The notes beneath the pieces are model-generated. The model did not search any database, was not told the origin of the DNA, and was given only the letters and a program-made list of their open reading frames with translations. From Desulfosarcinaceae bacterium (GTDB taxonomy: Bacteria > Desulfobacterota > Desulfobacteria > Desulfobacterales > Desulfosarcinaceae): a stretch of DNA of 64,000 nucleotides. Positions 31,594 to 34,904 of this stretch are shown here, one piece after another (positions within the stretch are counted from its first letter, which is position 1; every line of letters starts with the position of its first letter). Both the position numbers and the translations under genes were made by a program. The stretch is taken from positions 1-64,000 of the forward strand of contig JASJCL010000009.1 of assembly GCA_030066015.1 (NCBI GenBank), in the 5' to 3' direction.

Positions 31594-33873
31594 ATGACCT
31601 CCACCATCCTTGACATGATCGGCGACACCCCCCTGATTGAGATCCGCCACCTCAATCCCAATCCCCAGGTGCGCATGCTGGCCAAGCTGGAGTATCTCAA
31701 TCCCGGCGGCTCCATCAAGGACCGGCCGGCCCTGAGCATGATCACTGCGGGGGAGGCATCGGGCGAATTGACGCCGGATAAGATCGTTCTGGAGGCGACC
31801 AGCGGCAACACGGGTATCGGGCTTGCAATGGTGTGTTCGGTCAAAGGGTACCGGCTCCAGCTGGCCATGTCCGAAGCCGCCTCGGTGGAGCGTCAAAAGA
31901 TCTTGAAGGCCCGAGGCGCGGAGATCCTCCTGACCCCCGGACACTTGGGCACCGACGGCGCCATCGAGGAAGTGTACCGTCTGGCCCGCGAGTATCCCGA
32001 TCGCTACTTCATGACCGATCAGTACAACAATCCCGCCAACTGGCGGGCCCATTACGAAACCACGGCAGCGGAGATCTGGGCGCAGACCGGCGGCCAGGTG
32101 GACGTGCTGGTGGCCACGCTGGGCACCTCGGGCACCCTCATGGGGCTTTCCCGCCGTCTTAAGGAGCTGAATCCGCGCGTGCGCATCGTCGGCGCTGAAC
32201 CCTTCCTGGGCCACAAGCTCCAGGGGCTCAAGAATATGAAGGAGGCATATCGGCCTGAAATTTTCGACAAGGACCGCCTGGATGCCAAACCCAATGTGGA
32301 TGATGAGGAAGCCTTCGAGATGACCCGTCGACTGGCGCGGGAAGAAGGCCTCTTCGTTGGGATGAGCAGTGGTGCGGCAATGGTGACGGCCGTCGCGGAG
32401 GCCCGCCGGATGGACCCGGGTGTGCTCGTGGTGGTGCTGCCGGACGGCGGCGAGCGCTATCTGTCCACCAGCGTTTTCGATGTGCGCGAACCGGTCAAGC
32501 TTCGGTTGTTCAACACCCGCAGTCGACGCAAGGAGGCGTTCGAGACGCTCAAGCCCGGCAAGGTGGGCATGTACACCTGCGGCCCAACGGCGCATGCCCC
32601 ATTGCAAATCGGCGAGGGGCGCCGCTTCATATTTGCCGATCTGCTGCATCGCTACCTGGAGTATCGCGGCTATGCGGTGCGCCACATCATGAACATCACA
32701 GATTTGGATGACAAGACCATACAGGGTTCCGAGGCGGCCGGCCAAGCCTTGACGGCCTTCACCGATGCCCAGATCGAAGGGATCAAGGCCGACCTGGCCG
32801 CGTTGCGGATCAAACCGGCCGACGACTACCCGCGTTCCAGCCAGCACCAGGACGCCATGGTGAAAATGGCCGATCAACTCGTTCGCAAGGGATACGCTTA
32901 CGAAAAATTGCGTTCGCTTTACTTCAACATCTCACGTGCCAAGGACTACGGGCAGTTTTCAGGAATTGATCTCGATAAGATCCGTCTCGGGGCCACCGTG
33001 GATCTGGACGAATACGAAAAGGACAATCCCCGCGATTTCACCCTGCTTAAACGTGCCCGCCTCAGCGAACTCAAGCGGGGCATCTACACCAAGACCGATT
33101 GGGGCAATGTGCGCCCCTCTTGGCATCTCCAGTGCACGGCAATGGCCATGCACCACCTGGGGCGGCGATACGACATTCACACCGCCGGCCGGGAATTGCT
33201 CTTCCCCCACCACGAGAACAGCATCGCCATCGCCACCGCCGTCAGCGGCCACGCCGCCGCCAACCTCTGGGTGCATTGCGATCGGGTCCTTCTGGATGGC
33301 AAGAGCGTGCACGAGAGAACCAACGCCCTCACCGTGCGGGGCCTCCTGGAGAGCGGATGGGAGGGGCGCGTACTGCGCTTCTGGCTCCTGGGCAGCCACT
33401 ACCGCAAGGCGGTGATCTTCAGCAATGAGCGGCTGACCCAAGCCCGAGCCGCCTTGCGCCGGCTGGATACGGCCGTTAGGGAGCTGATGGACCACCATGG
33501 CGGAGAGCCATACGCCGAACTGGACCAGTTGCGCTACGACATCAAGCAGGGCTTCACCAACGCCATGGACGACGACCTCAATATCTCCGCTGCGTTGGCC
33601 GCCATTTTCAAGAACATCCGCAAGGTCAACCAGCTCCGTCAAACCGGTCGGATCGATGCCGCCGGTGCCGGGCAGGTGGTCGAAACCTTGCGTCAGATCG
33701 ACACGGTTCTGCAGGTATTCGACTTTGACCTCCCGGAGCATCCCCCCACCGTACAGGCCCTCTTGGATGAACGCGCCGCTGCCCGCAGTCGGGGGGACTG
33801 GGCCACCGCCGATGCCATGCGCGATCGGCTGCTGGAGATGGGCGTGCGGGTGCGTGACAGCCATGTTGACTGA
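31594..33873 (+). CDS. Cysteine synthase fused to a catalytically degenerate CysRS-like domain
   Basis: One 759-residue frame joins two enzymes. Residues 1 to about 302 are a PLP cysteine synthase: the Schiff-base Lys is K42 in NPGGSIKDR, with SGNTGIG and GTSGTLMG phosphate loops. Residues about 303-759 align along most of cysteinyl-tRNA synthetase (FNTRSRRKEAF, MYTCGPT, NITDLDDK, WHLQC, FPHHEN, TNALTVRGLL, SHYR). Both ATP signatures are lost: HIGH is QIGE (338-341) and KMSKS is KSVHE (570-574). Zinc ligands C329, C514 and H539 are kept; the fourth, normally Glu, is S543. The C-terminus stops before the anticodon-contacting tail. A cysteine-sensing or regulatory role is my inference. Confidence 0.9.
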   Translation: MTSTILDMIGDTPLIEIRHLNPNPQVRMLAKLEYLNPGGSIKDRPALSMITAGEASGELTPDKIVLEATSGNTGIGLAMVCSVKGYRLQLAMSEAASVERQKILKARGAEILLTPGHLGTDGAIEEVYRLAREYPDRYFMTDQYNNPANWRAHYETTAAEIWAQTGGQVDVLVATLGTSGTLMGLSRRLKELNPRVRIVGAEPFLGHKLQGLKNMKEAYRPEIFDKDRLDAKPNVDDEEAFEMTRRLAREEGLFVGMSSGAAMVTAVAEARRMDPGVLVVVLPDGGERYLSTSVFDVREPVKLRLFNTRSRRKEAFETLKPGKVGMYTCGPTAHAPLQIGEGRRFIFADLLHRYLEYRGYAVRHIMNITDLDDKTIQGSEAAGQALTAFTDAQIEGIKADLAALRIKPADDYPRSSQHQDAMVKMADQLVRKGYAYEKLRSLYFNISRAKDYGQFSGIDLDKIRLGATVDLDEYEKDNPRDFTLLKRARLSELKRGIYTKTDWGNVRPSWHLQCTAMAMHHLGRRYDIHTAGRELLFPHHENSIAIATAVSGHAAANLWVHCDRVLLDGKSVHERTNALTVRGLLESGWEGRVLRFWLLGSHYRKAVIFSNERLTQARAALRRLDTAVRELMDHHGGEPYAELDQLRYDIKQGFTNAMDDDLNISAALAAIFKNIRKVNQLRQTGRIDAAGAGQVVETLRQIDTVLQVFDFDLPEHPPTVQALLDERAAARSRGDWATADAMRDRLLEMGVRVRDSHVD

Positions 33874-33896
33874 CGATGAATCGAGGGGTTTGCCCG

Positions 33897-34904
33897 ATGA
33901 CGCCCGTTTATCTCCCTTTTAGTACCATTGAGGTTGCCACCGCCGAGAACCTGTTGCGCTGGTTCGCCACCATCACCCTCTACCAGCCGCGGATAAGCCT
34001 TCTGCCGGAGGCCTTGGCGCCGTGGCTCTCAGAGGGGCGCATTCGAACGTGCATTCCCGTTGACGACGCGGATGGGCGGCTCGAGCGCGCCCTGACGATA
34101 TGCCATCGGTGGGCCCAGGAGCGCGATCTGGGCAGGGGCGGGGCGGCAGCCTTTCTCAGGGCCCAATCGCCGGTAACCCCACTTTACGATGATGAGGCGG
34201 TCGGCCGTTTGCGCCGTCAGATCCTGTCCGGCGGCCCATCGCAAAAGGATACCCTGCCAGAGGATCCCGTTTTCGACGCGCGCCTGTTTTTGGCCATGGC
34301 CGAGGCTTACGACCGCGACAGCGCGCAAGCCGCCCGCCAGCTACAGGCGCTCCAGGCACTCGAGATGGAAGTACTGCAGGAGATGCACGCCGAAACGCAG
34401 ACGAATGCCAGGATCGGGCCGCCAACCGCCGCTCTTGCGGCAGCCGAGGACCGCGGCGCCCTCATGACCAGCGAGCGTCTGCGCGCCTGGGCCACCCTCG
34501 CCAGCCAGGACGTGGCGGCACCAGCGCTGATGGTCACAGATAGCCGGGCTGTGGCCGATGAACTGCTCGAATTCTGCAGCGGGGCCCCATCTGATGCACC
34601 GACTGCTACCCTTGAGGTTTCACTCGAGGGGATCGAATCGGCGGATCCCGACAACCGCCAGGCGCACCTGATGAGCTGGCTGGCGGAGACCCTCACCGCC
34701 GAGGCGCCCCGCGCTCGCTTCACCTGCGTCGCCGCCGGTCTGCCCCAGCACACTGGGGAAGGGCCCGTCTTGGCACTGCACCTTCTTGAAAGCTGTCCCA
34801 CCGGGCACCTTTTGCAACGGCTGCTGCCCCGCGGCGTTTCCCCCCGCTGGCACGCCGGGTCGGAGCAGTATTCTCATGGGATACTGGCCGCTCTTCACGC
34901 CTGA
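33897..34904 (+). CDS. Hypothetical protein downstream of the cysteine synthase fusion
   Basis: I do not recognise this 335-residue protein. It has no signal peptide, membrane segment or cysteine cluster. It is mostly helical, with an Ala/Gln/Glu-rich region around residues 140-180 (likely coiled coil) and a more mixed C-terminal half. The start at 33897 is preceded by GAGGGG. It begins 23 nt after the fusion gene and is very probably co-transcribed, which makes it a candidate functional partner. Codon use resembles the neighbouring genes. Confidence 0.75.
   Translation: MTPVYLPFSTIEVATAENLLRWFATITLYQPRISLLPEALAPWLSEGRIRTCIPVDDADGRLERALTICHRWAQERDLGRGGAAAFLRAQSPVTPLYDDEAVGRLRRQILSGGPSQKDTLPEDPVFDARLFLAMAEAYDRDSAQAARQLQALQALEMEVLQEMHAETQTNARIGPPTAALAAAEDRGALMTSERLRAWATLASQDVAAPALMVTDSRAVADELLEFCSGAPSDAPTATLEVSLEGIESADPDNRQAHLMSWLAETLTAEAPRARFTCVAAGLPQHTGEGPVLALHLLESCPTGHLLQRLLPRGVSPRWHAGSEQYSHGILAALHA

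Follow-up and report, generated by a model that had tools for sequence, protein, structure and literature searches.

The window, by which we mean the whole 64,000-nucleotide stretch of Desulfosarcinaceae DNA analysed here, contains a single open, stop-free frame on the forward strand (31594-33873) that encodes a protein of 759 residues. As the earlier note had proposed, ORF and domain matches show one intact frame joining a complete cysteine synthase to a cysteinyl-tRNA synthetase (CysRS) homologue. The latter is itself complete, residues 302-756 comprising the catalytic region, the DALR helical domain and CysS_C. The parts of the gene are as follows.

31594-33873, forward strand: whole fusion gene, cysteine synthase plus CysRS-like protein, 759 aa (ORF, domain matches, full-length homologues)
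31594-32481, forward strand: cysteine synthase half (CysK/CysM, fold-type II PLP), residues 1-296 (TIGR01136, PALP, structural model)
32497-33453, forward strand: CysRS-like catalytic region, residues 302-620 (tRNA-synt_1e; Z 49 to CysRS structures)
33553-33720, forward strand: DALR-type helical domain, residues 654-709 (DALR_2)
33733-33861, forward strand: CysS_C anticodon-binding domain, residues 714-756 (Pfam PF23493, E 9e-11; structure)

The synthase half matches TIGR01136 over residues 6-295 (350.8 bits; cut-off 344.15) and the Pfam family PALP over residues 6-284, and the Pfam match to tRNA-synt_1e covers residues 316-618. An AlphaFold2 model of the fusion has a mean pLDDT of 86, with a pTM of 0.61 that leaves the relative placement of the domains uncertain. 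Model residues 1-292 superpose on CysM/CysK structures (VIA-align; Z 37-39) and are close to the CysM enzymes of M. tuberculosis and E. coli, while residues 302-759 follow E. coli CysRS, as seen in its complex with tRNA (1u0b), all the way to the C-terminal end (VIA-align; Z 49.2, 437 residues, 37% identity).

Distribution, origin and genomic context

A search for further fusions, which the earlier note had suggested, found them in about 87 of 97 sampled relatives, mostly at full length and 56-73% identical, and in 155 of the 395 genomes sampled across the phylum, where full-length identity falls as low as 44%. Named matches come from Desulfobacterales, Desulfobulbaceae, Syntrophales, Desulfofervidaceae and other Deltaproteobacteria/Desulfobacterota, Desulfonema magnum being one example. 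The best 80 contig matches are nearly all Deltaproteobacteria/Desulfobacterota by title; the one titled Methanococcoides is perhaps mis-binned. The fusion is an old one, found widely in a large phylum to which the sulfate-reducing bacteria belong.

The CysRS halves of the fusions all fall on one side of a branch that separates them from the canonical CysRS of the same genomes and from that of E. coli (SH-aLRT 98). This argues for a single origin, and there was probably one fusion event. By sequence comparison the fusion is under purifying selection, with a dN/dS of about 0.07-0.15 for the CysRS-like region in five pairs that include degenerate members, dS being near saturation in some. These ratios, and the absence of internal stops among the full-length matches listed, rule out a decaying pseudo-domain. 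A sequencing or assembly error is likewise ruled out, since the fusion and its motif loss are both conserved in relatives, and a phage or mobile origin was set aside because no relative was found in viral contigs.

No neighbour of the fusion is conserved across the phylum, nor is there a conserved genomic link to cysS, and no recurring sulfur-carrier genes were seen among the neighbourhoods compared. Within its own order the genes run surE, HD/OB protein, tmk, fusion and unknown 340-aa protein, an arrangement that says little on function. In the window, the frame directly downstream of the fusion (33876-34904, forward strand) encodes a 342-aa protein with no Pfam match; in 13 of 41 genomes examined, from the own order and near it, a member of this family likewise follows the fusion immediately, in the same orientation.

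The cysteine synthase half and its substrate

Two lysines of the synthase half are fixed throughout the family.

31717-31719, forward strand: K42, PLP Schiff-base lysine (70/70 fusions)
32230-32232, forward strand: K213 in the family motif HxxQGLKNMxExY, aligning with the Arg of the M. tuberculosis CysM LRNMDEGF loop (70/70 fusions; absent from the organism's own CysK)

PLP lysine, phosphate-binding loops and family score all mark this half as a cysteine synthase. K42 and the two phosphate loops (SGNTG and GT-GT), previously read from the window protein, are indeed present there and invariant in 70 fusions, as are all the catalytic and PLP residues checked. The substrate loop containing K213 is nearly fixed among the fusions and differs from that of the same genome's CysK. 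Taken alone as a fragment, it has its best match in M. tuberculosis CysM (3dwg/3dki), an O-phosphoserine-dependent cysteine synthase according to the title of PDB entry 3dki. The two loops, LRNMDEGF in CysM and LKNMxExY in the fusion, are the closest found, although the fusion has Lys where CysM has Arg, and CysM carries no CysRS-like domain.

In eight closed genomes (G124, G160, G194, G294, G133, G195, G417 and G303) a search at E<=1e-30 brought up no CysK/M-like protein besides the fusion, and these eight gave no credible CysE or MetX either. CysE is absent (E<=1e-20) from 75 of 155 genomes with the fusion as against 50 of 240 without it, counts that ignore shared ancestry. Other genomes, the window's among them, have an additional adjacent cysE-cysK pair (G000:C150 in the window genome). 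Given that many fusion genomes have no CysE, the fusion would be expected to work without O-acetylserine from that enzyme. Since it is the sole synthase-like enzyme found in the eight closed genomes and CysE is absent from them, O-phosphoserine is the likely acceptor. The window genome also encodes (G000:C69:18509-19420) a PLP enzyme that, judged by eye, resembles a cystathionine beta-synthase-type protein with C-terminal CBS repeats, and so is another relative of cysteine synthase with a regulatory domain.

Active-site and tRNA-recognition residues of the CysRS-like half

The positions equivalent to the ATP motifs and zinc ligands of E. coli CysRS are listed below.

32578-32580, forward strand: C329, zinc ligand equivalent (E. 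coli C28; C in 55/70)
32605-32616, forward strand: QIGE (338-341) replacing HIGH, then the family signature R343 R344 (E. coli H40 position His in 3/70; RR in 70/70)
33133-33135, forward strand: C514, zinc ligand equivalent (E. coli C209; C in 55/70)
33208-33210, forward strand: H539, zinc ligand equivalent (E. coli H234; H in 70/70)
33220-33222, forward strand: S543 at the fourth zinc position (E. coli E238; E in 42/70, Ser in the window protein only, of 70)
33304-33318, forward strand: SVHER (571-575) replacing KMSKS (alignment to E. coli CysRS; second Lys kept in 4% of fusions)

The window protein has neither HIGH (or HIGN) nor KMSKS. Alignment confirms that HIGH has become QIGE; KMSKS is lost as well, as the earlier note had it, but the aligned residues are S571-V-H-E-R575, a shift by one from the 570-574 given there. 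Across the family the second His of HIGH (E. coli H40) is His in 3 of 70 fusions (4%) and Asn in another 3, the equivalent of E. coli K269, the second Lys of KMSKS, is kept in 3 of 70, and the two residues after the HIGH position (equivalents of E. coli R42 and T43) are both Arg in all 70. Several canonical-invariant residues, among them F47, I74, W184 and Q241 of E. coli, are lost in every fusion. The loss of the ATP signatures is therefore conserved across relatives and the second half cannot be an ordinary CysRS, as had been claimed; it is probably no longer able to load tRNA. It is the motif loss that relatives share, and not the precise letters of the window: its order mostly has HxGE..RR and KKVDE, and both the Gln of QIGE and the Ser at the fourth zinc position are unusual, order relatives mostly having His (83%) and Glu (83%), respectively.

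The window protein keeps three of the four zinc ligands (C329, C514 and H539) and has Ser for the fourth, in agreement with the earlier reading. In its order all four are usually kept (97/93/100/83%), and so are the equivalents of E. coli T68 (97%) and W205 (100%), which we take to be part of the cysteine pocket. The C28 and C209 equivalents are each missing in 15 of 70 fusions, and in one clade, with 11 sampled members, neither zinc cysteine and neither ATP motif survives. Some lineages keep HLGN..RR and KMSRS, and five fusions from other families (L036, L040, L043, L050 and L051) have near-canonical HLG(N/L)..RR, KMSRS and all zinc ligands. With such near-canonical members, the family shows a graded decay of the synthetase active site.

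A separate canonical cysS, for which the earlier note had advised looking, is present in the window genome (G000:C137:3922-4863) and in 27 of 27 genomes checked, which rules out the fusion as a genome's only CysRS. Given that relatives share the motif loss and that a canonical cysS is present, neither circumstance that the earlier note had named against itself, a genome with no other cysS together with aminoacylation by the fusion, or a motif loss due to sequencing error in one genome, was found. The canonical enzyme of the window organism sits on a long branch and differs in type from the one carried by most of the phylum (PF01406 scores of 316 versus about 430-476 bits), which suggests that the canonical CysRS of the window's order was replaced by transfer. 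In two genomes whose fusion is degenerate there is also a third CysRS paralogue, which stands alone (L173 in G383:C32; L174 in G457:C1). This protein has no anticodon domain and a very long branch; it matches what has been published on CysRS* and is a candidate for that enzyme.

The tRNA-recognition residues lie near the end of the protein.

33772-33813, forward strand: R727, R731, W736 and D740, equivalents of tRNA-Cys G34 contact residues R423, R427, W432 and D436 of E. coli (alignment, 70 fusions)

In E. coli CysRS these four residues contact base G34 of tRNA-Cys (Hauenstein et al. 2004, re-analysed in PMC12684709). The window protein has an anticodon-binding domain with the G34-contact residues, and all 70 fusions have R at the position of R423, R or K at R427, W, F or Y at W432 and D at D436. 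The earlier note had reported the anticodon-contacting tail as missing. This was wrong in the main, as CysS_C is present at 714-756, superposes on 1u0b and keeps the G34 contacts. What the window protein lacks is just the final ~10 residues (...PQGTTWRRK in E. coli). The C-terminal ~10 residues of canonical enzymes, W458 included, are absent from all 70 fusions, and tRNA binding might suffer from this loss; the GTxWR motif is likewise missing from the end of the organism's own canonical CysRS.

We compared retention along the CysRS half by taking positions invariant (at least 94%) in 18 canonical enzymes, with a single tail position left out, and scoring the share kept in the fusions. Across all fusions 92% of these positions are kept in the anticodon domain and 62% in the rest of the CysRS half. 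In the degenerate clade, which has lost the zinc cysteines, the shares are 93% and 46%. For the KMSKS loop they are 31% (all fusions) and 7% (degenerate clade). Of 123 consecutive blocks, each made up of eight invariant positions, the anticodon block ranks first for retention (permutation p 0.009 for all fusions, 0.0015 for the degenerate clade). As judged from these shares, selection is seen to have kept the anticodon-recognising residues while the ATP motifs were abandoned. The earlier claim that tRNA functions were lost is accordingly unsupported, the anticodon-binding domain being the best-kept part of the CysRS half. Structural demands may account for some of the residues retained in this domain. 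Its dN, taken over the full length, does not fall below that of the remainder of the CysRS half, and its net charge does not separate fusions from canonical enzymes.

Proposed function and its alternatives

A regulatory role is, by analogy, the most natural reading of the CysRS-like domain, given that a synthetase paralogue that would no longer charge tRNA is attached to an enzyme making the same amino acid. Building on the computed architecture, conservation, single origin, motif loss and retention of tRNA residues, on the canonical CysRS alongside and on the genomes without CysE or a second synthase, we propose that the domain is a tRNA-Cys-binding pseudo-synthetase regulating the attached cysteine synthase, itself probably O-phosphoserine-using. 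We give this proposal an even chance of being right. The N-terminal half would produce cysteine by combining sulfide with an activated form of serine, which is probably O-phosphoserine. The C-terminal pseudo-synthetase, which in most lineages would form no cysteinyl-adenylate, would dock tRNA-Cys via its anticodon domain, and its occupancy by (uncharged) tRNA-Cys would alter the activity of the attached synthase, a coupling that, like its direction, we infer. In E. coli CysRS a communication path starting at the anticodon region reaches the catalytic centre (PMC9976931). In lineages with the zinc site, cysteine or the cysteinyl end of Cys-tRNA may also modulate the synthase, and some near-canonical members might still activate cysteine. 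Cysteine synthesis would thereby track demand at translation. In its full form the proposal is of a biosynthetic enzyme under direct tRNA control, in which the pseudo-synthetase reads tRNA-Cys, possibly its charging state, and sets cysteine output, the fusion being in some species the sole synthase found and apparently using O-phosphoserine without CysE; this we hold more tentatively, at somewhat below an even chance.

The earlier note had suggested a cysteine sensor that regulates the attached enzyme. Regulation is still the most natural reading, but sensing through zinc-bound cysteine cannot be the function of the whole family, since the clade of 11 has lost both zinc cysteines while its tRNA residues remain; it may operate in the window's own order. 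As a rival, this account has the zinc pocket bind free cysteine and feedback-inhibit the synthase, with tRNA uninvolved. Loss of the ATP motifs is expected of a sensor, and the zinc ligands and T68/W205 equivalents usual in the window's order suit one. The 11-member clade, however, keeps the fusion under purifying selection without zinc cysteines, the window protein has itself lost the fourth ligand, and the superior retention of the anticodon domain is left unexplained; we consider the sensor unlikely. A scaffold is more doubtful still: here the CysRS-like half would recruit tRNA-Cys and/or the real CysRS, and local hand-over would limit free cysteine in sulfide-rich cells, with no allostery. 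The covalent link and the anticodon domain are conserved and a canonical CysRS was always present, but no such interaction is known and the fusion has no conserved genomic link to cysS.

That the C-terminal half, at least in near-canonical members, activates cysteine for transfer to tRNA or to a small acceptor, in the manner of MshC, is improbable. Five fusions do combine HLG(N/L)..RR, KMSRS and all zinc ligands, but the second Lys of KMSKS is nearly always lost, several canonical-invariant residues are lost in all fusions, and most lineages, the window's included, have no intact copy of either motif. Cysteine synthesis on tRNA, with the PLP half acting on a seryl or phosphoseryl group of tRNA-Cys held by the CysRS-like half, would draw on the kept tRNA-recognition residues, the O-phosphoserine-like substrate loop and, in principle, the precedent of SepRS/SepCysS (PMC5424206). 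We regard it as very improbable, given that the synthase half is by sequence an ordinary small-molecule enzyme, that a canonical CysRS is present and that no SepRS-like partner was noticed nearby. The same low estimate applies to the extreme form in which the fusion makes cysteine on tRNA-Cys or hands it over to it, which is far less likely than a tRNA-controlled enzyme. Least probable of all is a cysteine persulfide synthase as proposed for CysRS (CARS/CPERS), with PLP at the KIIK and KMSK lysines: a CysRS paralogue joined to a PLP enzyme in a sulfide-rich lineage, with K73 and K266 equivalents often kept, would suit it, yet the K269 equivalent is lost in 96%, K266 is Ser in the window protein and EcCARS needs the KIIK/KMSK lysines (PMC10655014).

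Our preferred reading, a tRNA-binding regulator of the synthase, has parallels among known systems. HisZ, a paralogue of HisRS, has no adenylation activity and controls HisG (PMC9437257). Both there and here a synthetase paralogue is attached to an enzyme making the same amino acid, with the true synthetase alongside, adenylation being absent in HisZ and the motifs lost in the fusion. HisZ, however, is a separate, class II-derived subunit on ATP phosphoribosyltransferase, whereas the fusion is a covalently joined class I CysRS that acts on the final step and keeps its anticodon-binding domain. Paralogy, motif loss and physical linkage are seen in the fusion; control of the synthase would follow by analogy. 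Gcn2 is described as sensing uncharged tRNA via a fused HisRS-like domain (PMC4335047), and like the fusion it joins a pseudo-synthetase domain, in its case one that binds uncharged tRNA to control the enzyme, to a catalytic partner. Gcn2 is nevertheless a eukaryotic kinase with a class II HisRS domain, and tRNA binding by the fusion is predicted. The mycothiol ligase MshC is, like the fusion, a CysRS paralogue outside translation with the same core fold (3c8z, Z 43.5), but it is an active ATP-dependent ligase, whereas the fusion has lost its ATP motifs in most lineages, carries CysS_C and a cysteine synthase, and scores 179 against the MshC NCBIfam cut-off of 485. CysRS* of Desulfobacterales, active on SelC* and without an anticodon domain (Mukai 2017b, as described in PMC9437257), is also a second CysRS in related bacteria; it has an intact active site and no anticodon domain, the reverse of the fusion.

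For CysRS, the only paralogues named in a review on such proteins across the synthetases are CysRS* and MshC (PMC9437257), and we found no description of a cysteine synthase-CysRS fusion in the open-access full-text literature, although a subscription-only paper or database annotation may exist. Synthetase paralogues in amino acid or thiol metabolism, such as HisZ and MshC, are a known kind; what appears new, within that literature, is a cysteine synthase carrying a CysRS-derived domain that has lost its ATP motifs and kept its tRNA-recognition domain. Recognising it would keep automatic annotation from labelling the gene a plain cysteine synthase or a cysteine--tRNA ligase, and the graded decay of its active site across lineages offers a natural series for the transition from synthetase to regulator. 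If the proposal is true, a protein itself would tie amino acid synthesis to tRNA, with neither transcription nor riboswitches involved, and the main cysteine enzyme would be identified for some members of a large and ecologically important group of sulfur bacteria, many of them without CysE.
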